A stretch of 64,000 nucleotides of DNA, from assembly GCF_038502225.1 (NCBI RefSeq), contig NC_091300.1:49404079-49468078 (forward strand), in the 5' to 3' direction. The stretch comes from Cherax quadricarinatus (lineage: Eukaryota > Arthropoda > Malacostraca > Decapoda > Parastacidae). Below, piece after piece: positions 959 to 44,342 of this stretch (position 1 is the stretch's first letter; each line of letters opens with the position of its first letter). The notes below the pieces were generated by a model. That model ran no database searches. It saw nothing but the letters and a program-made list of their open reading frames with translations, and was not told where the DNA came from. The translations under genes were made by a program, and so were the position numbers.

Positions 959-990
959 GGAATTAAGACACATGTGCAACATCTGGGTAT

Positions 991-1034
991 CTTTATTGTA
1001 GACGTTTCGCCATCCAGTGGCTTTATCAATACAA
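991..1034 (-). ncRNA. Hammerhead ribozyme, family C (U3-A8)
   Basis: On the minus strand the core reads TTGATAA, an extra A, a GCC/GGC stem II, GAAA, ACGT and cleavage base C. The helix I strands are GTA and TAC. Position 3 is U and position 8 is A, keeping the 3-8 pair of the hammerhead fold. Folded by hand; activity not tested. Confidence 0.7.
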
Positions 1035-1059
1035 ATCCCAGGACATAACTTGAAGATAG

Positions 1060-1094
1060 CACCGTAGTCTTGGAGATTCTCCAAGACTACGGTG
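1060..1094. repeat. Palindrome, 17-bp arms, 1-nt centre
   Basis: Perfect inverted repeat with arms 1060-1076 and 1078-1094. It forms the hinge between the two facing family C units. A closely similar palindrome closes the family C unit at about 5928-5960. Confidence 0.85.
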
Positions 1095-1178
1095 CTCTTC
1101 GCACCTACTGCTAAGTTGAGGGACTGATTACCTCATCTTCTGTACATAGTTCTACTATCTTCAAGTTATGTCCTGGAA

Positions 1179-1223
1179 TTTGTATTGATAAAGCCACTGG
1201 GTGGCGAAACGTCTACAATAAAG
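1179..1223 (+). ncRNA. Hammerhead ribozyme, family C (U3-A8)
   Basis: Core TTGATAA at 1185-1191, stem II GCCAC/GTGGC, GAAAC at 1206, ACGT helix III, cleavage after C, then TAC pairing with the GTA before the core. AATAAAG and a TTGCACATG box follow, as in the other family C units. Confidence 0.72.
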
Positions 1224-1295
1224 ATACCCAGATGTTGCACATGAGTCTTAATTCCATCTTGTTGGTATTGTATACCATTCTTGTACAACCTTTTC

Positions 1296-1358
1296 TGAAC
1301 ATTAAAATGGTATAAAATACCGACAATCTGTCGGTATTTTATACCATTTTAATGTTCA
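1296..1358. repeat. 30-bp-arm palindrome of the family A/C terminal box
   Basis: Arms 1296-1325 and 1329-1358 are perfect reverse complements around a 3-nt loop. The arm is the conserved terminal segment that ends TGTCGGT and continues as a TATTTTATACC hairpin in family A. The palindrome lies between the second and third copies of the AACCTTTTCT target string, so two inverted unit ends appear joined here. Confidence 0.85.
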
Positions 1359-1385
1359 ATCTGTCAGACCTACACAACCTTTTCT

Positions 1386-1570
1386 ATTCTGAAACGTTTC
1401 GCCTACACAGTAGGCTTCTTCAGTCGAGTGCAGAAAGTAGGCGGGAGCAGTAGAGATGTGAAGACGATGTAATCAGTCCATCACCCTTGAAGTCGTAGAT
1501 TTGAGGTTGTCAGTCCTTCAGCCTGGAGAAGTTCTGTTCCAAAGTCTGGAACTAACTGAAGATCGGTTAT
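1386..1570 (-). mobile_element. Family A-like hammerhead unit (solo)
   Basis: Minus-strand unit related to the 429-bp array at 44-47 kb. It contains the ribozyme at its left end, then the GATTACATCGTCTTC and GGACTGA-like leader elements, and a GTTCCAGACTTTGGAAC hairpin shared with the ribozyme-less copy at 40325-40613. Both solo copies of this subtype abut (TA)n arrays. A third copy of the target string AACCTTTTCT precedes it at 1376-1385. Confidence 0.65.
1389..1436 (-). ncRNA. Hammerhead ribozyme, family A
   Basis: Minus strand: CTGAAGA core (1417-1423 on the plus axis), extra A, 6-bp stem II GCCTAC/GTAGGC, GAAAC and ACGT. The third helix I pair is mismatched (C opposite A), unlike the array copies from 45.2 kb onward. 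Confidence 0.7.
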
Positions 1571-1665: not shown

Positions 1666-1705
1666 TATATGTAAAGTAAAAGGACACAAGTGCAACTAAT
1701 GTGAC

Positions 1706-1746
1706 ATTTATTGTGGCAACGTTTCGCTCTCCAGGAGCTTTATCAA
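1706..1746 (-). ncRNA. Hammerhead ribozyme, family D, helix I truncated
   Basis: Minus strand core TTGATAA, stem II GCTC/GAGC with CTGGA loop, GAAAC, ACGT, then GCC. The upstream helix I strand is replaced by the junction with the facing copy, so this copy is probably not self-sufficient. Confidence 0.6.
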
Positions 1747-1747
1747 T

Positions 1748-1795
1748 AATGGCTTGATAAAGCTCCTGGAGAGCGAAACGTTGCCACAATAAATG
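1748..1795 (+). ncRNA. Hammerhead ribozyme, family D (U3-A8)
   Basis: Helix I TGGC pairs with GCCA; core TTGATAA; extra A; stem II GCTC/GAGC; GAAAC at 1774; ACGT; cleavage base T. The U3-A8 pair replaces the usual C3-G8. Confidence 0.68.
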
Positions 1796-1857
1796 TCACA
1801 TTAGTTGCACTTGTGTCCTTTTACTTTACATATTGTCGGTAATTCTACCAACTTTAT

Positions 1858-2044
<187 letters not shown>

Positions 2045-2420: not shown

Positions 2421-2509
2421 AAGTGACATTCTTCAAGCTGTCAGTTTCCAAACCATTTATCACATGCTTATTTGTATTTAACACCATTTCAACAATTTCA
2501 CCATAGTCC

Positions 2510-2625
2510 TACTGTCTTCAAGTTATGTCCTGGAATTTGTATTGATAAAGCCACTGGATGGCGAAACGTCTACAATAAAGATACCCAGATGTTGCACATG
2601 TGTCTTAATTTCATCAATTTCACCC
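2510..2625 (+). mobile_element. Family C hammerhead unit fragment
   Basis: Solo family C fragment with ribozyme at 2538-2580: GTA helix I, TTGATAA core, stem II GCCAC/GTGGC-like, GAAACGTC, TAC. AATAAAGATACC and TTGCACATGTGTC follow. All catalytic positions are present. Confidence 0.68.
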
Positions 2626-2992: not shown

Positions 2993-3317
2993 GATCAGTC
3001 TCCCTACGATTCCCGTTGGGGAGGGTAACCTCTACCTGTTCGACAATGTTTGCACATCGTGTTAAAATCAAACCAGCCAGTGGTGTTATAAATGATTCCA
3101 CTAAACTATTACTTGCTGCCGCTATGAGGACCTGCCTACATCTCAAATTCACAGCTATCCACTCACTCAAGGATTCCTTTATTGTCGTCTGCACCGACGA
3201 CAATGAAGCAGCTAAACTTATGGACGACACTGCAATGAACACATTACGGGACCGACAATTCATCATATCACCGTCTCCCTCCTTGATAAATTAGACACAA
3301 GTGCAACTCTTGGGTAT

Positions 3318-3369
3318 CTTTATTGAGGAAACGTTTCGCCACACAGTGGCTTCATTAGTCCATACAAAG
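3318..3369 (-). ncRNA. Hammerhead ribozyme, family B, G5 lost
   Basis: Minus strand core reads CTAATGA instead of CTGATGA, so the catalytic G5 is an A. The remaining stem II, GAAAC and ACGT are intact. Probably inactive. Confidence 0.65.
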
Positions 3370-3754
3370 GAGAATCTTGAAGAATAGGAGGAGAATGAGG
3401 TAATCAGTCCCTCAACCTTGAGTCGATGTGGTCAGTCCATCAATCTTGAATAGAATACGGCATACGTGCTGAGAAGGAGCTTATAAACCGTTGGCAGGAG
3501 AGGTGAAGCAGTCAGAGGCAGTGTAACACTTATTCAATGTTGAAGTAGGTCGTGCCCAAGAATTAGGCAAGCGACCTACTTCAACATTGAATAAGTGTTA
3601 CACTGCCTCTGACTGCTTCACCTCTCCTGCCAACGGTTTATAAGCTCCTTCTCAGCACGTATGCCGTATTCTATTCAAGATTGATGGACTGACCACATCG
3701 ACTCAAGGTTGAGGGACTGATTACCTCATTCTCCTCCTATTCTTCAAGATTCTC

Positions 3755-3806
3755 CTTTGTATGGACTGATGAAGCCACTGTGTGGCGAAACGTTTCCTCA
3801 ATAAAG
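3755..3806 (+). ncRNA. Hammerhead ribozyme, family B (C3-G8)
   Basis: Consensus core CTGATGA at 3766-3772, extra A, stem II GCCAC-TGT-GTGGC, GAAA at 3787, helix III ACGT, then TCC. Helix I proximal pairs are GGA with TCC, and distal CTTT pairs with AAAG across an internal loop. This is the clearest textbook-type core in the window. Confidence 0.8.
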
Positions 3807-4125
3807 ATACCCAAGAGTTGCACTTGTGTCTAATTTATCAACATGTCGGTTCTCTGAACTATTCATCTACAAACCTGTCAGACACTGCACCTTCTTGGGA
3901 TCTTAATACTTGGGAATTCTTCGCTTGCCTAATTCTTGGGCACGACCTACTTCAACACTGAATAAGTGTTACACTGCCTCTGACTGCTTCACCTCTCCTG
4001 CCAACGGTTTATAAGCTCCTTCTCAGCACGTATGCCGTATTCTATTCAAGATTGATGGACTGACCACATCGACTCAAGGTTGAGGGACTGATTACCTCAT
4101 TCTCCTCCTATTCTTCAAGATTCTC

Positions 4126-4177
4126 CTTTGTATGGACTGATGAAGCCACTGTGTGGCGAAACGTTTCCTCAATAAAG
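4126..4177 (+). ncRNA. Hammerhead ribozyme, family B, second tandem copy
   Basis: Identical ribozyme to the copy at 3755-3806, 371 bp downstream. Two ribozymes in tandem would release a unit-length RNA of 371 nt if both cleave. Confidence 0.8.
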
Positions 4178-5501
4178 ATACCCAAGAGTTGCACTTGTGT
4201 CTAATTTATCAACATGTCGGTTCTCTGAACTATTCATCTACAAGTCTCCCTCCTTGCTGGCGAAACGTTCAGTTTTTGTTAAACAACTGGATAAGATAAT
4301 CACATCCATACCAACGGATGAACTGAAGACCTCTATCGAAGTCCAAAACACCTGGGCCTCTGTAGACACCATCACACGAATTCCCAATGCCTCATCTATG
4401 ATCAAAATAACCTTTTCAAACATAGATATGGCTAAACAAACACTCGCTAATGGACTAGCTATCTCATATTACCACATGCATCCACGCCACATTGAACCTG
4501 AACGTTTTGCCCATGTCTTTTCCTGTTGAAACTGTTACTCTTATCAACATTCAACAAAGGACTGTCCCATTAAAGACAAAAAGTTCTGTTCTACCTGTGG
4601 AAAAGAAGGTCATAACTTCAAAGCCTGCACCACCACCAATGCCACTCCAACATGTCTTAACTGCAAGCTAAATGCCCACTACGAAAAGAAGTAATGTCGA
4701 AAAAAATTAAAGAAGAAACCTAGAATAGTCCCAAATCGCCGACATATACCGCCATTTCAAAACTCAAGTCGGACACCACCAGAATTCTACAAGCCACACA
4801 GCAGTCATCTCTATCCAGCAATTCCCTTTCTGCACTCCCTGACGCTGCTCCCTCTAAGGTGTTGTACTGCATGATGTATGCACACCTTGCAAATGCAGCA
4901 AACCCAGGCACATTCAACACTACAATTAACGAACTATTCCGTCTTAACAACATGCCGTCATTCAACTTTCCTGACTCGCCAACATCACAGGACTTCCTCA
5001 AGATTATCCCAAACATCGCTAACTTCAGGCCCAAATCCTAACTCTGCCCCAAAAAACACTCCTGAACCACGCCCAGTGACCACTGCCACCTCTCAACAAC
5101 CACCAACAACCAGCCAGACCGCAAATACTCTAGACTCCCAGCCTCCTCTTGACACAATCACTGTAGAAACAATTGAACAAGAATTTCCTGACGAATCCCC
5201 CGACGAAGCAGATAGCGACGACTCCAGCACACCCTCTTGGGAAAACCTTACTTTCTACACCTCTCCCTCGAACGCTGACACCATGACCTGCTCTGAACTC
5301 TACAAAGGCCTCGGTGATGGAACAGTCAAGTATGCCTGCGAATCACCTCTTCACTTCACACTCACGCAAGTTCTTGAGTTCATCAAGCCTCTTCGTTTCA
5401 CTTTTTCCAACAAGACAACACTATACCACCTCTCCAGGAGCAGCTTCAAGAAGTTTGCAAATGGCTCCACTGCAAATCTGCCTCCTCAACTACTAAAATA
5501 A

Positions 5502-5797
5502 CCTCCCACATGTTTGCTGCCCTCTGATGGTCCTACCTGCCTGCCCTCTCCTGCGACCTGAAAACTTCCAGCTCTCGAGACTCAAAGACCTCACCTACCA
5601 CGAGACTGTTGCATACACAGCTTGCTCTCTTCCCGTTTTTTCTCCAAGTCTGTCCCACGATCGCCTTAGCTGCTGGGTCAAGCCCTGGCTCTATTTCTAC
5701 AACTAAGAACACTCCTTTCCAGCGTTATTCTTCGTCTGTCCCGTCTTCCCCTCTCATCCCATTGGGATCTTACCTGCACTTGCTTGCTTGCTTGCTG
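5502..5797 (+). repeat. 3' region of the ORF1-only Jockey-like element, with CTTG tail
   Basis: Follows the ORF1 stop directly. It contains CCCACGATCGCCTTAGCTGC, GGCTCTATTTCTAC and CCCATTGGGATCTTACCT, and ends in CTTGCTTGCTTGCTTGC (about 5778-5794). The same block follows the ORF1 copy at 42021-42279 (minus strand) and follows ORF2 at 7049-7314. That makes it a 3' untranslated region. Here and at 42 kb, ORF2 is absent between ORF1 and this region. Confidence 0.65.
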
Positions 5798-5960
5798 GGT
5801 ATCTTTATTGTAGACGTTTCGCCATCCAGTGGCTTTATCAATACAAAGTCTAAGACATAACTTGAAGACAGTAGGACTATATACAGAAGATGAGGAAATC
5901 AGTCCCTCAACCTTGGAGTAGGTGCGAAGAGCACCGTAGTCGTGGAGATTCTCCACGACT
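5798..5960 (-). mobile_element. Family C hammerhead unit (solo)
   Basis: Minus-strand family C unit that ends in a short palindrome at about 5928-5960 and abuts the Jockey RT fragment. The ribozyme occupies 5803-5847: GTA/TAC helix I, TTGATAA core, GCCACTGGATGGC stem II, GAAACGTC. Confidence 0.68.
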
Positions 5961-6339
5961 ACTGATGGTCAATTTGGCTTCAGAACTCACAGATCCACAC
6001 AGGATGCCATTAACATCATTCTCAACTACATCCACATAAACACAAAACAAAGAAACAGGACAGCTCTGGTCGCTAAAGACGTTGAAAAGGCTTTTGACAT
6101 TGTCTGGTATGAAGGGCTCAAACACAAACTTTGCACTAACTTTAACCTGCCTCTCACTACTCGTAAACTCCTCTGCAACTTCCTAGACGGCCGCACTATG
6201 AGAATCAAATTCCAAGGCTGTTACTCTGACTACTTCACACTAAATGCTGGATCTGTCCTCTCGCCTACCCTCTACATTTTATACACTAACGACATTTCAA
6301 CACCTGTATACCACAACTCCATCACACTAGCCTATGCAG

Positions 6340-6487
6340 ACATTACACAACTTGTAAAGTAAAAGGACACAAGTGCAACTAATGTGACATTTATTGTGGC
6401 AACGTTTCGCTCTCCAGGAGCTTTATCAAGTCCTTTTACTTTACATATTGTGGGTAATTCTACCAACTTTATTACATTACACAACTT
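6340..6487. mobile_element. Short family D hammerhead insert with 14-bp target-site duplication
   Basis: The 14-mer ACATTACACAACTT is present at 6340-6353 and 6474-6487, flanking a 120-bp insert. The uninterrupted target is visible in the sister LINE copy near 302-315. The insert has a minus-strand ribozyme (6388-6433) and the family D terminal sequences, but its upstream helix I strand has been replaced. It is a recent, precise, non-autonomous insertion. Confidence 0.82.
6388..6433 (-). ncRNA. Hammerhead ribozyme, family D, shortened
   Basis: Minus strand core TTGATAA, stem II GCTC/GAGC, GAAAC, ACGT. Only one of the three proximal helix I pairs is retained, because the unit is truncated just upstream of the core. 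Confidence 0.55.
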
Positions 6488-7314: not shown

Positions 7315-7414
7315 NNNNNNNNNNNNNNNNNNNNNNNNNNNNNNNNNNNNNNNNNNNNNNNNNNNNNNNNNNNNNNNNNNNNNNNNNNNNNNNNNNNNNN
7401 NNNNNNNNNNNNNN
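7315..7414. other. Assembly gap, 100 N
   Basis: Exactly 100 N. The 12-mer TCCAGCGCTATT ends the left flank (7303-7314) and starts the right flank (7415-7426), so the two contigs may overlap and the true gap could be nil. Confidence 0.99.
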
Positions 7415-7480: not shown

Positions 7481-7561
7481 CTATCCTGAGCAATCGTTCG
7501 TTCTGTAGGTTATAAGTGATCAAGGTCCCAGGACCGAAACGTTTTCTAATAAATATGTCAT
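7481..7561 (+). mobile_element. Family E hammerhead unit fragment
   Basis: Contains the ribozyme at 7509-7554 followed by AATAAATATGTCAT and then a long (TA)n. The unit is 5' truncated. A fuller family E unit lies on the minus strand at 41265-41452. Confidence 0.62.
7509..7554 (+). ncRNA. Hammerhead ribozyme, family E (G3-C8)
   Basis: The core reads GTGATCA (7516-7522), so position 3 is G and position 8 is C, the swapped form of the usual C3-G8 pair. An extra A follows, then stem II GGTCC/GGACC, GAAAC, ACGT, cleavage base T. Helix I TTATAA faces TTCTAA with one mismatch. Confidence 0.68.
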
Positions 7562-9416
<1,855 letters not shown>

Positions 9417-9435: not shown

Positions 9436-10194
<759 letters not shown>

Positions 10195-12561
10195 TTATTT
10201 GTCCAGTGTATTATTAAATTCTTCCCAAATTCTATTAATTATAAATGGATCTAATTTATATAAACCAAAGGAAATATTCATATTATTGTCAAAACTGCTT
10301 TTTATGAAACAAGATTCAATTATATTCCTGTCGACCATGGACTTGCTTGATACTACTTTCTCAACTTTTTGAAAATCAATTGGATGGTTAAAATCTCTTA
10401 CATGAATAAATAGAGCATTGGAATCTTGTCCAGTTCTAATGCTATATTTATGTTGTTTTAATCTTAGTTCGAGATTTTTACCAGTTTGACCGTAATAAAC
10501 TTTATCGCAAATTTTACAAGGAATCTTATAGACACATCCATCAGCATTTTGGGGGGAATTCTTTATCAAAAGTTTTTTTACTGTATCAAGATTTTTGAAT
10601 ACAACTTTAATATTAAAAGTCTTAAGAAGAGAAGGCATATCAACCAAGTTTTCATGGTAAGGGAGAACCAACATATTTTTAGTTGAATAAGGCTGGTTGT
10701 CCCTTTTTGGATTGTAAAAAGTATTTCTAGCAACTTTAAAAGATTTATCAATTACATTTCTTGGGTATTTTAAATCATTACCTATTTCATAAATTTTGGA
10801 TATTTCCTCATCTATGAACTCAGGACTACAAATTCGTAAAGCTCTCAAAAACATTGATGAGAAAACAGACAGTTTGACTCTATCTTGATGCGAGGAATAA
10901 TAGTGGACATAGGAACAGTTATTTGTAGGTTTTCTGTAAATTTTAAATTTGAATTCATTATTACCCTTAATAATTAAAACATCTAGAAAAGGCAATGAGT
11001 TATTTTCTTCAAACTCAACAGTAAAGTTTATAGAATGGGCTAAGCTATTTAATTTTCCAAGGAAATGGTGTATATCTACATTTTTGGGCATAAGACACAA
11101 AATATCATCAACATATCTGAACCATTTAGCTCTATTAGGGAGGATTGTGTTAAGCAACCTTGTTTCAAAAAATTCCATGTATAGGTTACTAAGAACAGGT
11201 GAAAGAGGATTTCCCATTGCCATACCAAACTTCTGAGTGTAAAACTTATCATTAAATACAAATTTTGCATCAACAATGCAAAGTTTAATAAGTTTAATGA
11301 TAGTAGGAACTGGCAATGGTAAATCATAGTTAACGAGTTCTTCAGATAAGAAACTTAATAAATCATCAACAGGAACTTTCGTAAACAAGGAAGTAACATC
11401 AAAACTAACCATGTTAAAATCATTTAAGTCAGTCAAGGAGCTTAATTTATCAACCAAGTCTATGTTGTTTTTAACATTAAAGTTAGAAATTTTGCCAACA
11501 ATAGGGCTCAAAATATCAACAAGCCATTTGGATAATTTATATGAAACTGACCCTATGGAGCTAATAATTGGTCTGACTGGATTCCCTGGTTTGTGTGTTT
11601 TTATTAGTCCATACATGTAAGGTAAAGATGGATTAGTGGAAGTAAATTGTTTGACTAATTCATCTTTGCCTTTCAGTAGAAGTTTTATTGTTTTATTGAA
11701 ATTGCTGTTAACGGTTTCTAGGGGATTTTTCCTAAGTTTAGAATAGGTTTCAGTATCATCTAAGAGATTATTCATTTTTTCTTGGTAATCATTTTCTTTC
11801 ATAATTACTATTGCATTTATTTTGTCTGCTTTAGTAAGGCGCAAATTTTTATTGTTATTAAGTGTATCATAAGACTTAAAGAATCTTTGAGGGCAATTGG
11901 GAATGTTTGGTTTTAACATAGAGCTATATACCATTCCTTTACTAATATTAATTTCATCAGAGGATAAATCAGAAAATTTTTCAAAGTTACAAAAGGCTTT
12001 TGCAATTTCAACATTATTAAGTTTTTTTGAAGTTGCAAAACTTAGGCCAAAACCTAGAGCAGCAGTTGTATGTTTGTCTAAAATTTCATCTGATAAGTTA
12101 ATTACAAAATTGTTATTAGCATGCTTTGTCCAATCACTATTTTCAATTAAAATGTCTAATTTTCTTTGTAGTTTGCTCTTGAGTTCATTACAAATTCTTC
12201 TGAGTTTATTATAGCAATGATCCAACATACTGTGTTTCCATTCTGATGGAATGGCCTGATTAAAAGAGTATTTTTTGTTTCTCAATATTTTGAATGCTTC
12301 CTTCTCCTGTATTTTAGTTATTTCAATATGTTTCTGAAGAATAATTCTCATAAAATCATCAAAAGGACGATCTCTCATGTCAAGGAGTCTATTGGGTAAA
12401 AGAGACTTGGGCAGAACTTGTTCATTTAAACAATTTTTTAAAAAATTAAGTCGAATTTTTAACTTGTGGGACTTGATCAGTGCAGAAGAAAACTGTGAAA
12501 CAAAAGATATATGATTAGGAAAGCTTATCGAGAACATTCTGAAGAGTCGTGTGGTATCCAT
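10195..12561 (-). CDS. PLE-1 copy 1: Penelope-like reverse transcriptase/GIY-YIG endonuclease
   Basis: Intact 788-residue polyprotein of a Penelope-like retroelement, which copies its RNA at a nicked target. The start is chosen at the ATG at 12561 (MDTTRLFRMF). The open frame runs on to a TTG inside the ribozyme, but a TAG stop lies just beyond. RT motifs include FDVTSLFTKVP, GMAMGNPLSPVLSNLY and FRYVDDILC (YVDD near residue 483). The C-terminal GIY-YIG domain starts near residue 672 with CVYKIPCKICDKVYYGQTG, the conserved R in LELRLKQHK and a candidate catalytic E in NIIESCFI. A 76-nt leader would separate the predicted ribozyme cleavage site from the ATG. It is the only complete copy here, near-identical to copies 3 and 4, so the family is young. 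Confidence 0.93.
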   Translation of the reverse strand: MDTTRLFRMFSISFPNHISFVSQFSSALIKSHKLKIRLNFLKNCLNEQVLPKSLLPNRLLDMRDRPFDDFMRIILQKHIEITKIQEKEAFKILRNKKYSFNQAIPSEWKHSMLDHCYNKLRRICNELKSKLQRKLDILIENSDWTKHANNNFVINLSDEILDKHTTAALGFGLSFATSKKLNNVEIAKAFCNFEKFSDLSSDEINISKGMVYSSMLKPNIPNCPQRFFKSYDTLNNNKNLRLTKADKINAIVIMKENDYQEKMNNLLDDTETYSKLRKNPLETVNSNFNKTIKLLLKGKDELVKQFTSTNPSLPYMYGLIKTHKPGNPVRPIISSIGSVSYKLSKWLVDILSPIVGKISNFNVKNNIDLVDKLSSLTDLNDFNMVSFDVTSLFTKVPVDDLLSFLSEELVNYDLPLPVPTIIKLIKLCIVDAKFVFNDKFYTQKFGMAMGNPLSPVLSNLYMEFFETRLLNTILPNRAKWFRYVDDILCLMPKNVDIHHFLGKLNSLAHSINFTVEFEENNSLPFLDVLIIKGNNEFKFKIYRKPTNNCSYVHYYSSHQDRVKLSVFSSMFLRALRICSPEFIDEEISKIYEIGNDLKYPRNVIDKSFKVARNTFYNPKRDNQPYSTKNMLVLPYHENLVDMPSLLKTFNIKVVFKNLDTVKKLLIKNSPQNADGCVYKIPCKICDKVYYGQTGKNLELRLKQHKYSIRTGQDSNALFIHVRDFNHPIDFQKVEKVVSSKSMVDRNIIESCFIKSSFDNNMNISFGLYKLDPFIINRIWEEFNNTLDK

Positions 12562-12834
12562 TAATGCAATAAGATCACAGTAAACAGGTGATTTCAGAAT
12601 ATGCAAAACAACCACTCTGAAAGAATAGAGAAATTCCAAGCGCTTTCGTGACTACTCACATTATCAAGGAACTATGAAAGTAAAGCATCCAAGGAAGCTA
12701 TATAAGGGGTCTGGCCAGCACCTCACTATCAGATCCCACAACGGTTAAACACGTGACGCGCGGCGAGCCAACTTGGATAGGTCCTTTGCACAACTCACCA
12801 ACAAACTATTCTACCCAAGAAAATTTAAAAATTA
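12562..12834 (-). repeat. PLE-1 pLTR shared by copies 2 and 1
   Basis: The 273 bp between the stop of copy 2 and the start of copy 1. It serves as 3' repeat of the truncated upstream unit and 5' repeat of the complete unit, the tandem arrangement typical of PLEs. It contains the ribozyme and the CTTATATAGC box. Confidence 0.85.
12632..12673 (-). ncRNA. Hammerhead ribozyme, family F (PLE-1 pLTR)
   Basis: Same fold as 9991-10033. Predicted cleavage lies between minus-strand T at 12638 and G at 12637, giving the 5' end of the copy 1 transcript. Confidence 0.8.
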
Positions 12835-13287
12835 TTATTTGTCCAGTGTATTATTAAATTCTTCCCAAATTCTATTAATTATAAATGGATCTAATTTATA
12901 TAAACCAAAGGAAATATTCATATTATTGTCAAAACTGCTTTTTATGAAACAAGATTCAATTATATTCCTGTCGACCATGGACTTGCTTGATACTACTTTC
13001 TCAACTTTTTGAAAATCAATTGGATGGTTAAAATCTCTTACATGAATAAATAGAGCATTGGAATCTTGTCCAGTTCTAATGCTATATTTATGTTGTTTTA
13101 ATCTTAGTTCGAGATTTTTACCAGTTTGACCGTAATAAACTTTATCGCAAATTTTACAAGGAATCTTATAGACACATCCATCAGCATTTTGGGGGGAATT
13201 CTTTATCAAAAGTTTTTTTACTGTATCAAGATTTTTGAATACAACTTTAATATTAAAAGTCTTAAGAAGAGAAGGCATATCAACCAA
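12835..13287 (-). pseudogene. PLE-1 copy 2: C-terminal GIY-YIG part only
   Basis: The last 150 residues of the PLE-1 protein, starting at VDMPSLLKTFN and identical to copy 1. It is truncated at 13287/13288, where the sequence flips to the plus-strand copy 3. It lies head-to-tail upstream of copy 1. Confidence 0.88.
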
Positions 13288-14846
13288 AACTTAGGAAAAA
13301 TCCCCTAGAAACCGTTAACAGCAATTTCAATAAAACAATAAAACTTCTACTGAAAGGCAAAGATGAATTAGTCAAACAATTTACTTCCACTAATCCATCT
13401 TTACCTTACATGTATGGACTAATAAAAACACACAAACCAGGGAATCCAGTCAGACCAATTATTAGCTCCATAGGGTCAGTTTCATATAAATTATCCAAAT
13501 GGCTTGTTGATATTTTGAGCCCTATTGTTGGCAAAATTTCTAACTTTAATGTTAAAAACAACATAGACTTGGTTGATAAATTAAGCTCCTTGACTGACTT
13601 AAATGATTTTAACATGGTTAGTTTTGATGTTACTTCCTTGTTTACGAAAGTTCCTGTTGATGATTTATTAAGTTTCTTATCTGAAGAACTCGTTAACTAT
13701 GATTTACCATTGCCAGTTCCTACTATCATTAAACTTATTAAACTTTGCATTGTTGATGCAAAATTTGTATTTAATGATAAGTTTTACACTCAGAAGTTTG
13801 GTATGGCAATGGGAAATCCTCTTTCACCTGTTCTTAGTAACCTATACATGGAATTTTTTGAAACAAGGTTGCTTAACACAATCCTCCCTAATAGAGCTAA
13901 ATGGTTCAGATATGTTGATGATATTTTGTGTCTTATGCCCAAAAATGTAGATATACACCATTTCCTTGGAAAATTAAATAGCTTAGCCCATTCTATAAAC
14001 TTTACTGTTGAGTTTGAAGAAAATAACTCATTGCCTTTTCTAGATGTTTTAATTATTAAGGGTAATAATGAATTCAAATTTAAAATTTACAGAAAACCTA
14101 CAAATAACTGTTCCTATGTCCACTATTATTCCTCGCATCAAGATAGAGTCAAACTGTCTGTTTTCTCATCAATGTTTTTGAGAGCTTTACGAATTTGTAG
14201 TCCTGAGTTCATAGATGAGGAAATATCCAAAATTTATGAAATAGGTAATGATTTAAAATACCCAAGAAATGTAATTGATAAATCTTTTAAAGTTGCTAGA
14301 AATACTTTTTACAATCCAAAAAGGGACAACCAGCCTTATTCAACTAAAAATATGTTGGTTCTCCCTTACCATGAAAACTTGGTTGATATGCCTTCTCTTC
14401 TTAAGACTTTTAATATTAAAGTTGTATTCAAAAATCTTGATACAGTAAAAAAACTTTTGATAAAGAATTCCCCCCAAAATGCTGATGGATGTGTCTATAA
14501 GATTCCTTGTAAAATTTGCGATAAAGTTTATTACGGTCAAACTGGTAAAAATCTCGAACTAAGATTAAAACAACATAAATATAGCATTAGAACTGGACAA
14601 GATTCCAATGCTCTATTTATTCATGTAAGAGATTTTAACCATCCAATTGATTTTCAAAAAGTTGAGAAAGTAGTATCAAGCAAGTCCATGGTCGACAGGA
14701 ATATAATTGAATCTTGTTTCATAAAAAGCAGTTTTGACAATAATATGAATATTTCCTTTGGTTTATATAAATTAGATCCATTTATAATTAATAGAATTTG
14801 GGAAGAATTTAATAATACACTGGACAAATTTTCTTGGGTAGAATAA
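13288..14846 (+). pseudogene. PLE-1 copy 3: 5'-truncated RT/GIY-YIG
   Basis: Begins inside the protein at LRKNPLETV, runs through TSLFTKVP, YVDD and the GIY-YIG domain, and stays open. The first in-frame ATG is at 13410 (478 codons). A small deletion after LDK replaces the normal stop, so the protein would end FSWVE. It is joined head-to-head to copy 2 at 13287/13288 and head-to-tail to copy 4. Confidence 0.88.
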
Positions 14847-15090
14847 CTTGGGGGTGAGTTGTGCAAAGGACCTATCCAAGTTGGCTCGCCGCGCGTCACG
14901 TGTTTAACCGTTGTGGGATCTGATAGTGAGGTGCTGGCCAGACCCCTTATATAGCTTCCTTGGATGCTTTACTTTCATAGTTCCTTGATAATGTGAGTTG
15001 CCACGAAAGCGCTTGGAATTTCTCTATTCTTTCAAAGTGGTTGTTTTGCATATTTTGAAATCACCTGTTTACTGTGATCTTATTGCATAT
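14847..15090 (+). repeat. PLE-1 pLTR shared by copies 3 and 4
   Basis: Plus-strand terminal repeat with CTTATATAGC at about 14947-14956 and a ribozyme at 14979-15020. It ends ACTGTGATCTTATTGCAT before the truncated copy 4 coding region. Confidence 0.85.
14979..15020 (+). ncRNA. Hammerhead ribozyme, family F, stem II altered
   Basis: Core TTGATAA and AGCGCT helix III are intact, but stem II reads GTGAGTTGCCAC, a shorter stem than the GTGA/TCAC of the other three copies. Confidence 0.7.
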
Positions 15091-17265
15091 CGTCCTTTTG
15101 ATGATTTTATGAGAATTATTCTTCAGAAACATATTGAAATAACTAAAATACAGGAGAAGGAAGCATTCAAAATATTGAGAAACAAAAAATACTCTTTTAA
15201 TCAGGCCATTCCATCAGAATGGAAACACAGTATGTTGGATCATTGCTATAATAAACTCAGAAGAATTTGTAATGAACTCAAGAGCAAACTACAAAGAAAA
15301 TTAGACATTTTAATTGAAAATAGTGATTGGACAAAGCATGCTAATAACAATTTTGTAATTAACTTATCAGATGAAATTTTAGACAAACATACAACTGCTG
15401 CTCTAGGTTTTGGCCTAAGTTTTGCAACTTCAAAAAAACTTAATAATGTTGAAATTGCAAAAGCCTTTTGTAACTTTGAAAAATTTTCTGATTTATCCTC
15501 TGATGAAATTAATATTAGTAAAGGAATGGTATATAGCTCTATGTTAAAACCAAACATTCCCAATTGCCCTCAAAGATTCTTTAAGTCTTATGATACACTT
15601 AATAACAATAAAAATTTGCGCCTTACTAAAGCAGACAAAATAAATGCAATAGTAATTATGAAAGAAAATGATTACCAAGAAAAAATGAATAATCTCTTAG
15701 ATGATACTGAAACCTATTCTAAACTTAGGAAAAATCCCCTAGAAACCGTTAACAGCAATTTCAATAAAACAATAAAACTTCTACTGAAAGGCAAAGATGA
15801 ATTAGTCAAACAATTTACTTCCACTAATCCATCTTTACCTTACATGTATGGACTAATAAAAACACACAAACCAGGGAATCCAGTCAGACCAATTATTAGC
15901 TCCATAGGGTCAGTTTCATATAAATTATCCAAATGGCTTGTTGATATTTTGAGCCCTATTGTTGGCAAAATTTCTAACTTTAATGTTAAAAACAACATAG
16001 ACTTGGTTGATAAATTAAGCTCCTTGACTGACTTAAATGATTTTAACATGGTTAGTTTTGATGTTACTTCCTTGTTTACGAAAGTTCCTGTTGATGATTT
16101 ATTAAGTTTCTTATCTGAAGAACTCGTTAACTATGATTTACCATTGCCAGTTCCTACTATCATTAAACTTATTAAACTTTGCATTGTTGATGCAAAATTT
16201 GTATTTAATGATAAGTTTTACACTCAGAAGTTTGGTATGGCAATGGGAAATCCTCTTTCACCTGTTCTTAGTAACCTATACATGGAATTTTTTGAAACAA
16301 GGTTGCTTAACACAATCCTCCCTAATAGAGCTAAATGGTTCAGATATGTTGATGATATTTTGTGTCTTATGCCCAAAAATGTAGATATACACCATTTCCT
16401 TGGAAAATTAAATAGCTTAGCCCATTCTATAAACTTTACTGTTGAGTTTGAAGAAAATAACTCATTGCCTTTTCTAGATGTTTTAATTATTAAGGGTAAT
16501 AATGAATTCAAATTTAAAATTTACAGAAAACCTACAAATAACTGTTCCTATGTCCACTATTATTCCTCGCATCAAGATAGAGTCAAACTGTCTGTTTTCT
16601 CATCAATGTTTCTGAGAGCTTTACGAATTTGTAGTCCTGAGTTCATAGATGAGGAAATATCCAAAATTTATGAAATAGGTAATGATTTAAAATACCCAAG
16701 AAATGTAATTGATAAATCTTTTAAAGTTGCTAGAAATACTTTTTACAATCCAAAAAGGGACAACCAGCCTTATTCAACTAAAAATATGTTGGTTCTCCCT
16801 TACCATGAAAACTTGGTTGATATGCCTTCTCTTCTTAAGACTTTTAATATTAAAGTTGTATTCAAAAATCTTGATACAGTAAAAAAACTTTTGATAAAGA
16901 ATTCCCCCCAAAATGCTGATGGATGTGTCTATAAGATTCCTTGTAAAATTTGCGATAAAGTTTATTACGGTCAAACTGGTAAAAATCTCGAACTAAGATT
17001 AAAACAACATAAATATAGCATTAGAACTGGACAAGATTCCAATGCTCTATTTATTCATGTAAGAGATTTTAACCATCCAATTGATTTTCAAAAAGTTGAG
17101 AAAGTAGTATCAAGCAAGTCCATGGTCGACAGGAATATAATTGAATCTTGTTTCATAAAAAGCAGTTTTGACAATAATATGAATATTTCCTTTGGTTTAT
17201 ATAAATTAGATCCATTTATAATTAATAGAATTTGGGAAGAATTTAATAATACACTGGACAAATAA
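15091..17265 (+). pseudogene. PLE-1 copy 4: RT/GIY-YIG lacking about 65 N-terminal residues
   Basis: Nearly complete. The pLTR is fused directly to RPFDDFMRII, so the first 60-70 residues of copy 1 (MDTTRLF to LLDMRD) are absent. The frame is then open to the stop at 17265 with all RT and GIY-YIG motifs. The first in-frame ATG is at 15109. The long open frame from 14998 passes through pLTR sequence and starts at TTG, so it is not taken as the gene. Without the N-terminus it is probably inactive, though the catalytic residues are intact. Confidence 0.85.
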
Positions 17266-17620
<355 letters not shown>

Positions 17621-17666: not shown

Positions 17667-20600
17667 CTAGCTATACAATGTGTGTGCATAACTAGCGTAG
17701 GAGTCAGACAAGTCAGTAGGTACGTCAATGTCACAGAAATGTACTGTTGTCCTGGGTCGCAGGCCATAAGTATGGAGCCTTACTGGGCCGTCTTCCGTAC
17801 CAGTAGTAGTGGGAGAAGGGATAGACGGTTTGTCCCTAACATTAGTCTGATCGTGGCGTTGCAACGCACGCGCCTCCAGCTCTGCTTCGGCCTGCATATG
17901 GTCCACATACTTCATGTGATCAAGGTGGGCTTCCTTGATAGTTCCCGTAGCAATCTCCCTCACCTCGAACTTATTGCCACGGAGCTGTCGTAGGACACGG
18001 TAAGGACCCACAAACTTTGGGACAAGTTTGTGCATACCTGGGGTCTGCACTGGGTTGAGCAACATAACTTTGCAACCTGGTTCCACTTTGCTTTCCTTGG
18101 CGCGGGCATTGCGCTCAGACGTGAACCTATCAGTAGCTTTCATAAGGTTCTCTCGTACCCGCTGGAAGACAAGCTGCGTTGTCCTCATCTTTACTACACT
18201 GGGGTTATCAGTATCGTAAGTAGGTCTAGGTGGAGCAAACAGAATTTCATATGGTAAGCGCTTGTCATAGCCATACAAAGCAAAATGAGGTGTCTCACCG
18301 ATCGAGCTGTTGAGGGAGGAATTTAATGTACACTGAACATCTGGGATAGCCTCATCCCATGTAGTACAACTTGGGTTAACGGTTACTCTGAGCACCTCCA
18401 GGACTTTGCGATTTGTACGTTCAGCAAGACCATTACTCGCAGGGTGGCGTGGAGCTACTGGCGCTTGATGAATGTTGAATCTGGAGCAAAGATCCTGCAT
18501 TATGCCATTTATAAACTCAGACCCATTGTCTGACAGAAGGACACGTGGGCAAGTATGACGAAGAACAACATGCTCACGGAAAGCACTAGCGACCGTTTCG
18601 GCGGTTTTATCAGGAATGGGTACTAATTCACTGTACCGCGTCAAGTTATCTACCATTACAAGCAGGTGCTTATTTCCCTTCTCCGAGGTCGAGAAGTTCG
18701 TCAACAGGTCGACAGAAGTTCTCTCCCAGGGCTCCTTTGTAATGGGATACTTTAGAATGGGGTTAGGGCCTGTAATGGTACCCTTGTGCTGTAGGCAAAC
18801 AACACACTGGTGTACATGCTTGGCAATGTCCGCTGCCATCTTAGGCCAGAAATATTTCATTTGTGCCTGTTTGATACTGCGGTCCTTCCCGGGGTACGCT
18901 ACACCTGGGACATTGTGAATCAACCTAATTGTAGCTGGTATCATGGACTCTGGTATCACCAGTTGGTATATGGTTCTGCCGGGGTCCACCAGCTGTGCAA
19001 CACGGCACAGTACTCCCTGGTTGACCACCAAATCCTTCAGTGGAACGGGAGACTTGACCTGTAAGTCAACGTCCTCCTTGGTCAGGAAACGAAGGACTGG
19101 AGACCACACAGGGTCCTGTCGTTGGGCTCTCTCGAGATCCTCAACAGAGAACGAATTGCCTACACTCACGAATGCTATATGTCTCGACAGGGCATCAGCT
19201 ACAACATTTTGCTTACTTGGGACATAGCAAATTTCAGGGTTGTAGTCATTGAACGTGAGCGACCACCGAGCATGCTTTCCCGAGAGGTTCTTATTCGCAA
19301 AAAGGGCAAATAAGGGTAAATGATCTGTATAAATCTTGATAGGATAATGATAGATGATATCCCGAAAATGACTCAGGGCCCATACAATGGCTAAAGCTTC
19401 TAGCTCTGTCACTGAATAATTGACTTCCGCTTTAGTAAGGACACGGCTAGCATAGGAAATAGGCTGTTGCTTACCATTAGATTCCTGTGACAAGACTGCA
19501 CCGATGCCAACTTTGCTGGCATCAGTCGTCAAGGTAAATGCCTTGGTGAAATCAGGGAATCTAAGGGTTGGGGCTGATGTTAACTTGTTCTTAAGAATGA
19601 CAAAAGCTCGTTCCTGATCACACGTTCACTCAAAAGGGGCATCCTTCTTAAGTAAGCGTGTCAGGGGTGCAGCAATGGTGGAGAAACCTGCGATAAAGGT
19701 GTGGTAGAAACCCGCCAGGCCTATGAAGGACCGGACTGCATCCGCCGTCATGGGTCTGGGGAATTTCTGCACGGCCGAGATTTTAGACTCGTCCGTCTTT
19801 ATGCCATTCTGAGTCACTACGTGACCCAGAAATTTTATTTCCTTCCGGAGGAAATGACATTTGGAGAGCTTTACCTTAAGATTTGCCTGAGCTAGCCTGT
19901 CCAATACCCTGTCAAGTTTCTCAAGATGTGACGGGACATCTTGCAACATGACTATGAGATCATCCAGGTAGACCATGAGCGTGCCACCTAGGAGGGTACG
20001 GAAAATTGTCGTCATCAAACGACTAAATGTGATTGGGCTTCCGCGCAAGCCGAAAGGCATCATCCTGAACTGGTAATGACCAGTTGGAGTAGAGAAAGCT
20101 GTCAACTCTCTGCTCTCATCATCGAGGGGGATCTGCCAGAACCCTTGAAGAAGATCAAGAGTTGAAAAGACCTTATTATCGCCGATGTTCTGCAACAGGT
20201 CGTTCAGAACTGGCAATGGAAAGCGGTCTGGGATGGTACATGCATTCAGTTTCCTGTAATCGATAACAGGGCGCCAGGTTCCGTCTTTCTTGGGAACCAG
20301 AATAAGGGGAGCATTCCACGGGGAAGTGGACTCCTCAATAACTCCATCACGGAGCATCCGTGTAATGAGTTCTTCGGCGAAGACTCTTTGCGCATGTGGC
20401 AGGCGATACGCAGGTACATAAATGGGTTTAGTACCTTTGTCAAGTGGAATACGGTGAGAGATCAGTGGGGTCAAACCCATTGACTCACCTTCTAGTGCGA
20501 CTGCAGAACGTGCACGATTGAGAACCTGGAGAAGTTTTGGGACCTCTTCAGGATAATCTGTCAATGCTAGATCATCTTCCTGCACTGGCCGGGTGTTGGA

Positions 20601-20780
20601 AGAGTCAGCAGCAGACTCGCCTGGGAGAACTGCACTCACAAGGAAGTCAACTGGGGCTTCACCCTCCACTCTCACCGGGAGAGGGAATCTGACAAGGTCG
20701 ACAAGTGAGGTATTCTTCCGCAGGGGAAATTCTCGACTATGCATGTTGACAACAAGGACTGGGTAGGAGTGAGTACACAA
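17667..20780 (-). pseudogene. Ty3/Gypsy pol (RT, RNase H, integrase) with one in-frame stop
   Basis: Pol of an LTR retrotransposon. The first part (20780-19626) has the RT with KKDGTWRPVIDYRKLN and YLDD near residue 271. A TGA at 19626-19628 interrupts it between RT and RNase H. The same frame continues with RNase H (TTDAS, ELEALAIVWAL, YTDH, VADALSR) and integrase with D275, D335 and E371 counted from 19532, spacing DD35E. The integrase zinc motif keeps H206, C243 and C246, but the second histidine position reads AYPG. Gag and protease are not recognised upstream and no LTR was found, so the element is truncated at both ends. Confidence 0.88.
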
Positions 20781-20994
20781 CGGACAGTGTGAGGGAGTGA
20801 CCGCAAGCCAGTCCGTGGAGGGGGAGCACTTGTGTCTGTCAAGTCAGTCGGCCTAGGAGTGAGGGAGAGGCATGGGCCGGCAGGCTGGCATGCCTACCTA
20901 GAGGCCTGGCTACAGAGGGCAGCACCTGAGTGGCGCGAAATATGAACTAAGCTGGCAGACAGCATGGGCTGTCTGTGCAGACAGTACAGGCTGT
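20781..20994. other. Unassigned spacer
   Basis: GC-richer stretch with GGCTGTCTGTGCAGACAGTA inverted motifs around 20965-20990. It could be leftover Gypsy 5' sequence, but no protease or gag motif is visible. Confidence 0.4.
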
Positions 20995-28065: not shown

Positions 28066-28252
28066 ATGATAAATTAGACACATGTGCAACTCTTGGGTAT
28101 CTTTATTGAGGAAACGTTTCGCCACACAGTGGCTTCATCAGTCCATACAAAGGAAAATCTTGAAGAACAGGAGTAGAATGAGGTAATCAGTCCCTCAACC
28201 TTGAGTCGATGTGGTCAGTCCATCAATCTTGAATAGAATACGGCATACAGTG
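28066..28252 (-). mobile_element. Family B hammerhead unit inserted in the repeat
   Basis: ATAAATTAGACAC start and GGCATAC end match the family B insert at 3286-3550. The sister repeat at 31990-32575 lacks it, so it is an insertion. No ORF. Confidence 0.72.
28101..28152 (-). ncRNA. Hammerhead ribozyme, family B, intact core
   Basis: Minus strand CTGATGA, stem II GCCAC/GTGGC, GAAACGTT and TCC with GGA in helix I. All catalytic positions are consensus. Confidence 0.78.
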
Positions 28253-28671
28253 CTCTTCCTGACCTGTCCCACACCCACCTATTAGCTTTATGTCTTCTAT
28301 GCTTCATCTGTCTCCTCGCTCTATTCTATTATAAATTGCCAATTGCTATTCGTTATCGAGTATTTGATATCCTATTCTTTATCATAGTAAGAGAGTTGGA
28401 CCGTTCACGAACAGCTTGGCGGTAAATTGGAACTCAACACCCGACTCCCAGCAAACCTCGCATAGGTTAGATATTTGCGATGCAGCCTGCAGCAGCCTGC
28501 AACAGCCTGCAGAAGCCTGTAGATTGTCCAACTCGATGTGATGTCCTGGCGTATATCCACTTCTGTTTTTTGTCATATATAATATAACCTATTCACTGTA
28601 TTTCTTTCACTGGTCACACATTTATTTCACTTTATTATCTTTCTTGGGTGACACGTGGCAACGTCGCTTGT

Positions 28672-40613: not shown

Positions 40614-41202
<589 letters not shown>

Positions 41203-41264
<62 letters not shown>
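41203..41264. repeat. (TA)n microsatellite
   Basis: Joins MITE copy 3 to a family E unit. Confidence 0.95.
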
Positions 41265-41267: not shown

Positions 41268-41452
41268 TATTAGAAAACGTTTCGGTCCTGGGACCTTGAT
41301 CATTTCTAACACACAGAGGTAGAAAGACATTATATATATAGGCGGAGAGTGAGGTGTGAGTGACGCATGGTGACGTGAAGAATGTCATGTTGGGATGAGG
41401 ACGAGTAGACGATGAGATCATGTGACTCCTGTCTTGTTGGGTTGGTGGTGCT
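41265..41452 (-). mobile_element. Family E hammerhead unit
   Basis: Minus strand. The ribozyme is at 41268-41309, with a CCTATATATAATGTC TATA-like box 20-30 nt upstream of it and a body with GACGTGAAGAATGTC-type sequence. Bounded by (TA)n at the left and a CR1 family 2 tail at the right. Confidence 0.62.
41268..41309 (-). ncRNA. Hammerhead ribozyme, family E, position 3 mutated
   Basis: Helix I is a perfect 6-bp TTAGAA/TTCTAA. The core reads ATGATCA, so C8 is kept but position 3 is A rather than the G seen at 7516, breaking the 3-8 pair. Stem II GGTCC/GGACC, GAAAC and ACGT are intact. Confidence 0.65.
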
Positions 41453-41763
41453 TAAGAACATAAGAAAGAAGGAACACTGCGACAGGCCTACTGACCCATG
41501 CGGAGCACGTCCATGTCCCCCCCGGGATTAGACCAATGACCCACCCAGCCTGGTCATCCCCACTCAAGGATGGAGCACTGTACTAGACCCAGCTGCACAA
41601 GCTAGTCAGGTCCAACTCACACCCACCCACACCCACTCATGTATTTATCTAACCTATTTTTAAAACTACACAACGTTTTAGCCTCAATAACTGTACTAGG
41701 GAGTTTGTTCCTCTCATCCACAACTCTATTACCAAACCAGTGCTTTCCTATATCCTTCCTGAA
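41453..41763 (-). pseudogene. CR1 family 2 host copy, 3' tail and C-terminal end
   Basis: Minus strand. Tail with TTCTTATGTTCTTAAG at its end (41453-41470), CCTACTGACCCATGCGG, and CACACCCACTCATGTATTTA, then the C-terminal coding end up to ATCCTTCCTGAAT. The rest of this LINE copy resumes at 47036, after a 5.3-kb insertion. Confidence 0.75.
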
Positions 41764-42020
41764 TGAACATTAAAATGGTATAAAATACCGACAGGTTGTT
41801 AGGTAAGACACATATGCAACAGTTAGGTATCTTTATTTTGAAACGTTTCGCCTACACAGTAGGCTTCTTCAGTCGAGTACAGAAAAGTTGATAGAAGCAG
41901 AAGATACTTGAAGACGATGTAATCAGTCCATCACCCTTAAAGTTTTGAGGTGGTCAGTCCCTCAGTCTGGAGAAGAGCATTGTTCCATAGAATGAAACAA
42001 TATGGAGATGAAGTGCAAAG
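41764..42020 (-). mobile_element. Family A hammerhead unit, inverted left flank of the array
   Basis: Minus-strand unit with the ribozyme at 41828-41888 and the GGGACTGACCACCTCAAAAC leader, facing the plus-strand array that starts at about 43905. The Jockey ORF1 copy lies between the inverted ends. Confidence 0.78.
41831..41888 (-). ncRNA. Hammerhead ribozyme, family A
   Basis: Minus strand CTGAAGA, GCCTAC/GTAGGC stem II, GAAACGTT; CGA faces TCA in helix I, so the third pair is mismatched. Confidence 0.72.
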
Positions 42021-42279
42021 CAAAAGCAAACAAGTTTAGGTAAGATCCCAATGGGATGAGCGGGGAAGACGGGACAGATGAAGAATAGCTCTGGAGAGGA
42101 GTGTTCTTAGTAAGAGAAATAGAGCCAGGGCTTAACCCAGCAGCTAAGGCGATCGTGGGGCAGACTTGAGAACAGGAATAGCAGGGACTGTTGCATTGAA
42201 CTTGTGGTAGTTGAAGTCTTGAATCTTGAGTAGCTGGCAGCAGGCTAGGTCACATCAGAGGGTAGAACACATATGGGAG
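42021..42279 (-). repeat. 3' region of ORF1-only Jockey-like element
   Basis: Minus strand: CCCACGATCGCCTTAGCTGC, GGCTCTATTTCTC, CCCATTGGGATCTTACCT and a CTTGTTTGCTTTTGCTTT tail next to the family A unit. Same layout as 5502-5797: ORF1 stop, this block, CTTG-type tail, no ORF2. Confidence 0.65.
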
Positions 42280-43818: not shown

Positions 43819-43904
43819 TGTGAAAAGGATATCACGTTTGTAGAATATAAATTCTACACCCCGACGGGGTCGAAGAGAGGCTTCTTGCGGTGTAGAGCAA
43901 CTGA
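43819..43904. other. 5' leader remnant of the ORF1 element
   Basis: Contains CCCGACGGGGTCGAAG and the join to the family A array. No separate feature recognised. Confidence 0.4.
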
Positions 43905-43926
43905 ACAGAAGTACTGCTTCTATCAA

Positions 43927-43983
43927 CTTTTCTGTACTCGACTGAAGAAGCCTACTGTGTAGGCGAAACGTTTCGAAATAAAG
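43927..43983 (+). ncRNA. Hammerhead ribozyme, family A, array copy 1
   Basis: Core CTGAAGA at 43942; helix I CGA pairs with TCG after the cleavage base; distal CTTT pairs with AAAG. Confidence 0.78.
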
Positions 43984-44203: not shown

Positions 44204-44342
44204 CTCCATCCTGTCACTTCATCTTCATATTGTTTCAGACTACGGAACAATGCTCTTCTCCAGACTGAGGGACTGACCACCTCAAAACTTTAAGGGTGAT
44301 GGACTGATTACATCGTCTTCAAGTATCTTCTGCTTCTATCAA

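Follow-up and report, generated by a model that had tools for sequence, protein, structure and literature searches.

PLEs and retrozyme-like units are known kinds of element, and an earlier proposal has PLEs moving the retrozymes. Hammerheads in PLEs were reportedly first treated in Cervera 2014 and Lunse 2017. In the Poseidon PLE of Anolis (PAc), as set out in the main account by Frangieh (2024, PMC11167929), the protein cuts and extends both DNA strands, reverse transcription starts at two internal RNA sites that match the genomic tail, and the commonest start lies in a stem-loop 111-118 nt into the ORF, with the hammerhead cut 26 nt in. Penelope of Adineta vaga, in the passages on its structure by Arkhipova (2013, PMC3846280), has head-to-head inverted pLTRs with an optional 31-bp tail at one of them, target duplications of 8, 9 or 10 bp with none at some copies, a TATA box 20 bp before the initiator, and captured host genes. 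Metazoan non-LTR retrozymes are described by Cervera and de la Pena (2020, PMC7229834) as units of 150-450 bp that occur alongside PLEs, and a weak helix III is described there for the amphibian retrozymes too. Hammerheads with a U3-A8 pair had, according to the corresponding passage of the 2011 survey, not been seen in nature before it (Perreault 2011, PMC3088659). As discussed in 2020, the enzyme that moves animal retrozymes was left open, with PLEs as a strong candidate. The role of the minimal hammerhead in PLEs has been called a mystery. Literature searches on hammerhead ribozymes with crayfish or crustacean retrotransposons, and on the motif letters, returned no earlier description of the locus presented here, and retrozyme borders matching PLE tails were not found among the matches listed for titles and abstract openings on retrozymes and PLEs.

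The window, by which the whole 64-kb stretch analyzed is meant, is eukaryotic DNA dense in transposable elements, and all element comparisons at the DNA level were confined to it. LINEs with reverse transcriptase and endonuclease are abundant, and a LINE gag-like frame at 42283-43860 has 66% identity over 97% to a Cherax quadricarinatus protein. Frames of the LTR retrotransposon type lie at 17667-20843 (minus), where a 652-aa frame (17667-19625) matches RNase H and integrase models. Two long frames of 376 and 1129 aa at 58839-63295 (plus) are LINE-like on reading; the plus strand is G-rich over 60001-64000, with a skew of 0.48-0.55, overlapping them. A run of 100 N at 7315-7414 is an assembly gap within a LINE 3' region. 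Pieces at 49485-50734 (minus) and 52208-52723 (plus) resemble, by eye, a second, decayed PLE; the scanned stretches 49488-50309 and 52208-52720 gave no Pfam matches.

Anatomy and controls of the hammerhead motif

Families were lettered by helix I (B, GGA/TCC; C, GTA/TAC; D, TGGC/GCCA; E, TTAGAA/TTCTAA; F, AGTTCC/GGAATT), with letters B-F following the first-pass annotation of this DNA and letter A given to a 429-nt array absent from it. Both strands were searched with a descriptor that was composed after the first look at the motif and consisted of the core, stem II, GAAA, helix III, NUH, a helix I of at least 3 bp, and a pairable 3-8 position. This returned 21 complete minimal type I hammerheads, compared with 0 in each of 20 dinucleotide shuffles. 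A 27-base pattern derived from families B, C, and D, with up to three mismatches permitted, had 15 matches (13 exact and 2 with one mismatch) against 0.00 expected from 100 shuffles. Among 32 candidates listed by hand, broken ones included, the core is intact in 28 (A 10/10, B 3/5, C 7/8, D 3/3, E 1/2, and F 4/4), and 21 combine an intact core with a helix I of at least 3 bp. The four broken candidates are C at 49171 (without the core), B at 2391 (GAT for GAA), B at 3330 (CTAATGA), and E at 41276 (A3-C8). An exact search of IMG/VR and GTDB contigs with the hammerhead patterns for B, C, and D gave 0 matches.

A MAFFT alignment of the six hammerheads was misregistered, and pairs were counted on hand-set segments. 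With one hand-picked representative per family (in D the only one that has helix I, in E the one whose core is paired), standard pairs were found in 47 of 48 cells, covering helix I, the 3-8 pair, and four stem II pairs in the six families, whereas the count averaged 28.0 and never exceeded 44 when the 3' strands were permuted among families, 0 of 20,000 block permutations being as good. At the 3-8 position, families A and B have C-G and families C, D, and F have U-A; G-C occurs in a single E copy, the helix I of which is imperfect. Within the 429-nt A array, helix I is CGA/TCG in the first copy and TGA/TCA in the last five, with two mismatched CGA/TCA copies between. Helix I is only 2-4 bp long in families A and B, and helix III is a palindrome without a loop, ACGU or AGCGCU. 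The window hammerheads are predicted to self-cleave after H17. When hammerhead pairs from families A, B, C, D, and F were co-folded, a double hammerhead formed for F only; A and B paired through the GAAACGUUUC palindrome in a 10-bp duplex that sequesters the core, and C and D paired through other helices.

The first-pass annotation had read these repeats as type I hammerheads, and the order of the parts, the identity of the core, and the covariation support that reading for A, B, C, D, and F; for E it is marginal, as no copy of the two is fully intact, one having a helix I interrupted after 2 bp and the other an A3-C8 core. Its claim that helix I covaries between families holds, and the A array extends it to copies within a family. 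The TGGC/GCCA helix I of D is as described but occurs in one of three copies. The covariance-model check that it proposed had a divided outcome: comparison between families shows covariation, but no Rfam model scored above threshold. The whole window contained no Rfam family at the gathering score and no hammerhead at E up to 10, narrow searches on F, C, and A stretches returned no hammerhead, and the sole hammerhead match in any of these searches was RF00008 (type III) at 14.5 bits and E 0.63 in a 71-nt stretch at the B site. The models miss the window hammerheads probably because helix III is a bare palindrome, so that this stem is lost to them.

Elements, borders, and target sites

Feature coordinates are given in Table 1.

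TABLE 1 Hammerhead-bearing elements and associated features in the window
Feature	Position	Strand	Description
Family C duplication of 960-1284	947-959 / 1285-1297		13 bp
Family C head-to-head insertion	960-1284		In LINE reverse transcriptase gene; hammerheads 996-1034 (minus) and 1180-1218 (plus)
Family A piece	1296-1563	-	Hammerhead core intact, helix I 2 bp
Family D head-to-head insertion	1671-1859		Between AT repeats; hammerhead 1750-1786 (plus); minus copy with intact core, without helix I
Family C insertion, one orientation	2503-2614	+	Hammerhead 2537-2575; 10-bp duplication 2493-2502 / 2615-2624
Family B target site duplication, GTCTCCCTCCTTG	3273-3285 (left) / 4244-4256 (right)		13 bp, of insertion 3286-4243
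Family B insertion	3286-4243		Inverted unit head-to-head with 1.8 direct units of 371 nt
Family B hammerhead	3763-3797	+	Site of the first-pass annotation (3755-3806); intact; GGA / CTGATGA / A / GCCAC-TGT-GTGGC / GAA / ACGT / T / TCC
Family B hammerhead, second tandem unit	4134-4168	+	Intact
Family C fragment, one orientation	5795-5962	-	Hammerhead 5808-5846
Family D duplication of 6354-6473	6340-6353 / 6474-6487		14 bp
Family D head-to-head insertion	6354-6473		120 bp, in LINE reverse transcriptase gene; core intact, helix I lost at junction
Family E hammerhead	7510-7549	+	G3-C8 core, helix I interrupted after 2 bp
PLE (F), head-to-head	9925-17503		Long left end, short right end, both inside AT repeats
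F hammerheads	9991-10032, 12632-12673	-
F hammerheads	14979-15020, 17433-17474	+
PLE reading frame	10195-12651	-	818 aa stop to stop; reverse transcriptase and GIY-YIG
PLE reading frame, 5'-truncated	14992-17265	+	757 aa stop to stop
Family B fragment, one orientation	28067-28254	-	Intact hammerhead 28110-28144, short end
Family E hammerhead	41270-41309	-	Helix I complete, core broken (A3-C8)
Family A inverted unit	41761-42015	-	Other end of the array's composite insertion; core intact, helix I 2 bp
Family A array	43914-47039	+	7.3 units of 416-429 nt; eight hammerheads
Family C head-to-head insertion, degenerate	49078-49219		In AGT microsatellite; hammerhead broken
Family C tandem array, one orientation	53751-54734	-	Units of 407 and 397 nt; hammerheads 53826-53862, 54233-54269, 54630-54666
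Stem-loop directly 3' of hammerhead, B	3799-3905	+	From folding
Stem-loop directly 3' of hammerhead, A	43976-44088	+	From folding
Stem-loop directly 3' of hammerhead, C	54127-54232	-	From folding

The F frames are surrounded by four hammerheads, and the two copies stand head-to-head, so that the hammerheads lie in inverted pseudo-LTRs. The protein matches RVT_1 at E 2.8e-12 and GIY-YIG at E 3.6e-4, the latter with 21.2 bits, just below the cut-off of 22.6. Its best relative among the matches listed has 65% identity over 96%; PF01541 is present in at least eight of its relatives by precomputed annotation, and five named relatives come from Oratosquilla, Penaeus, and Cherax, both among the 120 listed of 160. 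Together with the gag match, these names suggest that the DNA belongs to a crustacean and probably to a decapod. The link to PLEs and animal retrozymes drawn in the first-pass annotation was thus right, since F flanks an 818-aa frame with both domains. F is accordingly classed, on its encoded protein, as a true PLE separate from the A-D lineage: similarity between F and A-D was not significant, with a best E of 0.12 among the listed lines. Families A-D are homologous and have a common module of ~110 nt. A model built from two A copies, one B, two C, and one D gave 32 matches at E up to 1, and both E copies, which were outside the model set, matched it at rough E-values of 0.0067 and 0.011. A-D are one lineage of relatives, not independent families, and E is probably kin to it, marginally linked. 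The first-pass annotation, with its inventory of at least six families, overstated their independence, and such inventories are not new in kind, 16 families having already been reported in one coral genome.

The A-C families consist of noncoding tandem units of 371 nt (B), 397-407 nt (C), and 416-429 nt (A) with a type I hammerhead, and no PLE frame of at least 130 aa was found inside the A-D insertions of the window. Full A-C units have the order TATA-like box, minimal type I hammerhead, common stem-loop. The box starts upstream of the cut by 157 nt in B, 172 nt in C (with a second box at 71 nt), and 194-195 nt in A; in F it starts at 67 nt. The same stem-loop architecture with an apical hairpin was obtained for A, B, and C, one copy each, at z-scores of -4.00, -4.04, and -4.31. 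In a five-copy alignment, 2 of 25 pairs changed on both sides, and paired cells amounted to 96.5%, compared with a shuffled mean of 94.3% and with 30-43% when the partner was slid by 1-3 columns. The case for the stem-loop rests on folding and the common architecture, because 25 of 500 shuffles reached the observed values and covariation is weak. The F region past the hammerhead folded at z -0.15, with 87 of 200 shuffles as good, and no shared stem-loop is claimed for F for that reason. AATAAA stands a few bases past the cleavage site in most A-E copies, at the foot of the stem-loop (43976-44088, 3799-3905, and 54127-54232); as a poly-A signal, it could compete with cleavage or set the RNA 3' end near the short border. 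Circular RNA from the A-C units is putative; one-unit circles of A, B, and C folded at z -5.05, -2.62, and -2.03 relative to 50 mononucleotide shuffles, with 57-61% of bases paired, a result given no weight here.

Borders were set by hand, six of them by duplications and the rest by BLAST ends and homology. Borders within microsatellites may be off by a few bases, and one end each of D 6354-6473 and C 49078-49219 was placed by eye. Three of 18 rows were omitted, namely one array-internal position and two E rows merging with AT repeats. The remaining 15 ends fall into two classes by distance past the cleavage site, a short one of eight ends (35, 41, 44, 44, 46, 47, 47, and 48 nt) and a long one of seven (71, 72, 77, 77, 77, 78, and 79 nt), with none between. 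In A-C, these positions flank the apical hairpin of the common stem-loop, the short border lying before the hairpin and the long border past it, ahead of the returning strand. The two borders of F flank a short ATCAC/GTGAT repeat, as seen by eye. Seven insertions are head-to-head with the unit 3' side outermost at both ends (C 960-1284, B 3286-4243, D 6354-6473, D 1671-1859, F 9925-17503, C 49078-49219, and A 41765-47036). Six of them have one end of each class, and the A insertion has two long ends. The B insertion, which lies in a LINE gag frame, has a short left end (44 nt) and a long right end (78 nt), and the hammerhead on its left side (H17 at 3330, minus strand) carries the broken core CTAATGA. 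Insertions that retain the hammerhead run on across the cleavage site.

Twelve border pairs, that of F included, were tried, and four of them have clear target duplications (B 13 bp, D 14 bp, C 13 bp, and C 10 bp). Of the eight pairs without a clear duplication, three are in microsatellites, F among them with both borders in AT repeats, and the other five are not convincing, three having repeats of 7, 6, and 6 bp, the A composite having no repeat, and an old B copy having a 10-bp repeat that lies ~30 nt outside its borders. Random border pairs had a repeat of at least 10 bp in 9 of 300 cases and of at least 13 bp in 4 of 300 (4 and 2 of 257 outside repeat arrays). Joined flanks of the B insertion align gap-free to another gag copy at 71% over 164 positions, and those of the D insertion align to another LINE copy at 91% over 322, with no gap at the join and 17 gap positions elsewhere. 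Up to the duplication, the left flank of C 960-1284 is 96% identical to LINE copy 2. By eye, ACAACCTTTTCT occurs three times in a row between the C and A pieces at 947-1400, as if one regenerated site had been hit more than once. AT microsatellites lie at or near D, E, and F borders (1861-2043, 7560-7779, 9825-9924, 17504-17618, and 41202-41263).

The eight cores of the A array are all intact, and helix I has at least 3 bp in six of the eight. Units 3-7 differ at 0-3 positions and unit 1 at 66-68, being ~85% like the others. An origin of the array from one circle copied round and round is not favored, as unit 1 is 85% identical. The composite at 41765-47036 reads as an inverted A unit and the A array placed head-to-head, together with a LINE gag region that ends at its 3' tail. 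It holds a LINE gag frame and lies in one LINE copy that, compared with the copy at 8319-9415, lacks about 356 bp of target; the captured gag region is joined to the A unit 20 nt after the start of the TATA-like box. It looks like template jumping onto LINE RNA.

Proposed mechanism and alternatives

We consider it likely that the repeats comprise short noncoding insertions (A-D, and probably E) and one coding PLE (F), and that A-D were moved by a PLE-type protein with reverse transcriptase and GIY-YIG domains. The basis is the hammerhead anatomy and its covariation, the folded stem-loop, the two border classes, the duplications, and the empty-site relatives. From it we infer transcription, cleavage, the identity of the enzyme, and the order of steps in a cycle of the following kind. 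A tandem locus would be transcribed from the TATA-like box, and the hammerheads with their palindromic helix III (ACGU or AGCGCU) would yield RNA of unit length by cleaving, probably as paired dimers. RNA with an intact site, either uncut or cut and re-closed, would then be bound by the PLE reverse transcriptase plus GIY-YIG protein, which would nick both target strands. The cDNA would start 3' of the hammerhead, either 35-48 or 71-79 nt beyond the cleavage site, and cDNAs primed from both target strands would meet head-to-head and leave target duplications. The template is taken to be uncut or re-closed at the cleavage site because the hammerhead-bearing insertions span it, and cleavage itself may serve to release units or to form circles. 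The same spanning of the site and the PLE-like structure favor PLE-type mobilization of the noncoding units. As F has no significant similarity to A-D and its fold is not unusual, we infer machinery shared between A-D and F from geometry. The mechanism would not differ between the two identities that A-D may have, stand-alone elements of the retrozyme type or solo pseudo-LTRs belonging to a PLE encoded elsewhere. Points that weigh against this overall reading are the Rfam result, the short helix I and core-sequestering duplex of A and B, the weak covariation in the stem-loop, the eight border pairs lacking a clear duplication, and the several pieces that stand in a single orientation.

As a tentative extension, itself somewhat doubtful, the hammerhead and the ~80 nt of the stem-loop region may form a self-sufficient mobility module, on which a PLE protein supplied in trans would start cDNA on either side of the apical hairpin from both cut strands, mobilizing elements down to 120 bp; the hammerhead would be kept beside the start site, with its fold as well as its cleavage selected. 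If so, retrozyme-like elements and PLEs would have one insertion mechanism in common.

Movement of A-D by LINEs, whether the gag/reverse transcriptase LINE or others in the window, with the inverted structure produced by LINE twin priming, is quite improbable. The window offers abundant LINEs with reverse transcriptase and endonuclease, duplications of 10-14 bp fit LINEs too, and in the A composite an A unit is fused, 20 nt past the start of its TATA-like box, to a LINE gag region. Twin priming inverts the 5' part of one cDNA; here, however, both outer borders are unit 3' ends and fall into the two position classes that the PLE insertion also has, and the flanks examined have no A-run or LINE-type tail. 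Another reading, also unlikely, keeps the PLE protein and makes the hammerheads catalytically dead relics that serve it as an RNA or DNA recognition sequence, with cleavage having no role. It would account for hammerhead-bearing insertions that cross the cleavage site and for the short helix I in A and B, and the PAc account reports that hammerhead mutants leave insertion in vitro unaffected; however, the same account reports that PAc RNA cleaves once protein is added (PMC11167929), and compensatory changes in helix I, the 3-8 pair, and stem II are not expected of a site recognized by sequence only.

Growth of the tandem arrays as satellite DNA by unequal crossing-over, with the hammerhead hitch-hiking, we regard as very improbable for the repeats as a whole: it leaves the single and head-to-head copies with duplications and their fixed borders unexplained, even though the 0-3 differences among units 3-7 of the A array and the 66-68 of unit 1 are as local duplication gives. 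Unequal crossing-over may account for the length of the A array. Chance matches to the motif, with which the absence of Rfam models above threshold would agree, have a negligible probability and were refuted by the shuffle and permutation controls (0 in 20 for the descriptor, 0 in 100 for the 27-base pattern, and 0 in 20,000 permutations).

Comparison with described elements

The locus adds structural support for PLEs as movers of nonautonomous hammerhead elements, together with a very small candidate module. Its noncoding hammerhead elements share with the neighboring PLE the two kinds of end position, a property that can be counted genome-wide, and the 120-bp insertion is a small substrate for the in vitro PLE assay described for PAc (PMC11167929). 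F is like known PLEs in having a reverse transcriptase and GIY-YIG frame bounded by minimal-hammerhead repeats in head-to-head copies, and in having two alternative 3' borders about 35 nt apart. Some of the A-D copies are also like PLEs, with six head-to-head insertions, an optional tail of 30-40 nt, and target duplications, but A-D differ from PLEs in having no PLE reading frame. The distance from start to cut that follows from the PAc positions is 85-92 nt, near the 71-79 nt border class of the window. The TATA-like box, the tail at one end only, and the captured gag region of the A composite likewise resemble what is described for Adineta. Target duplications span 10-14 bp in the B, D, and two C insertions, compared with 8-10 bp in Adineta, for which the passages on structure mention no hammerheads (PMC3846280).

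Families A-C are like the metazoan retrozymes, as portrayed in PMC7229834, in consisting of noncoding tandem units that carry a type I hammerhead, occur alongside a PLE, and at 371-429 nt fall within the published size range. Invertebrate retrozymes are portrayed with a canonical hammerhead and a stable helix III, whereas A-C have a 4-nt palindrome without a loop, as in PLEs. The satellite hammerheads of newt and axolotl resemble those of the window in their weak helix III, for which the text on them expects dimers to be necessary (PMC7229834), but their helix III is described as a stem of one or two pairs with a tetraloop, and that of the window is ACGU or AGCGCU with no loop. The G3-C8 pair of the one E copy differs from U3-A8, which alone is reported in nature in the pertinent part of PMC3088659, and a G3-C8 swap appears among the PAc mutants in PMC11167929. 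Families C, D, and F share U3-A8 with the hammerheads reported there by Perreault in 2011 (PMC3088659).
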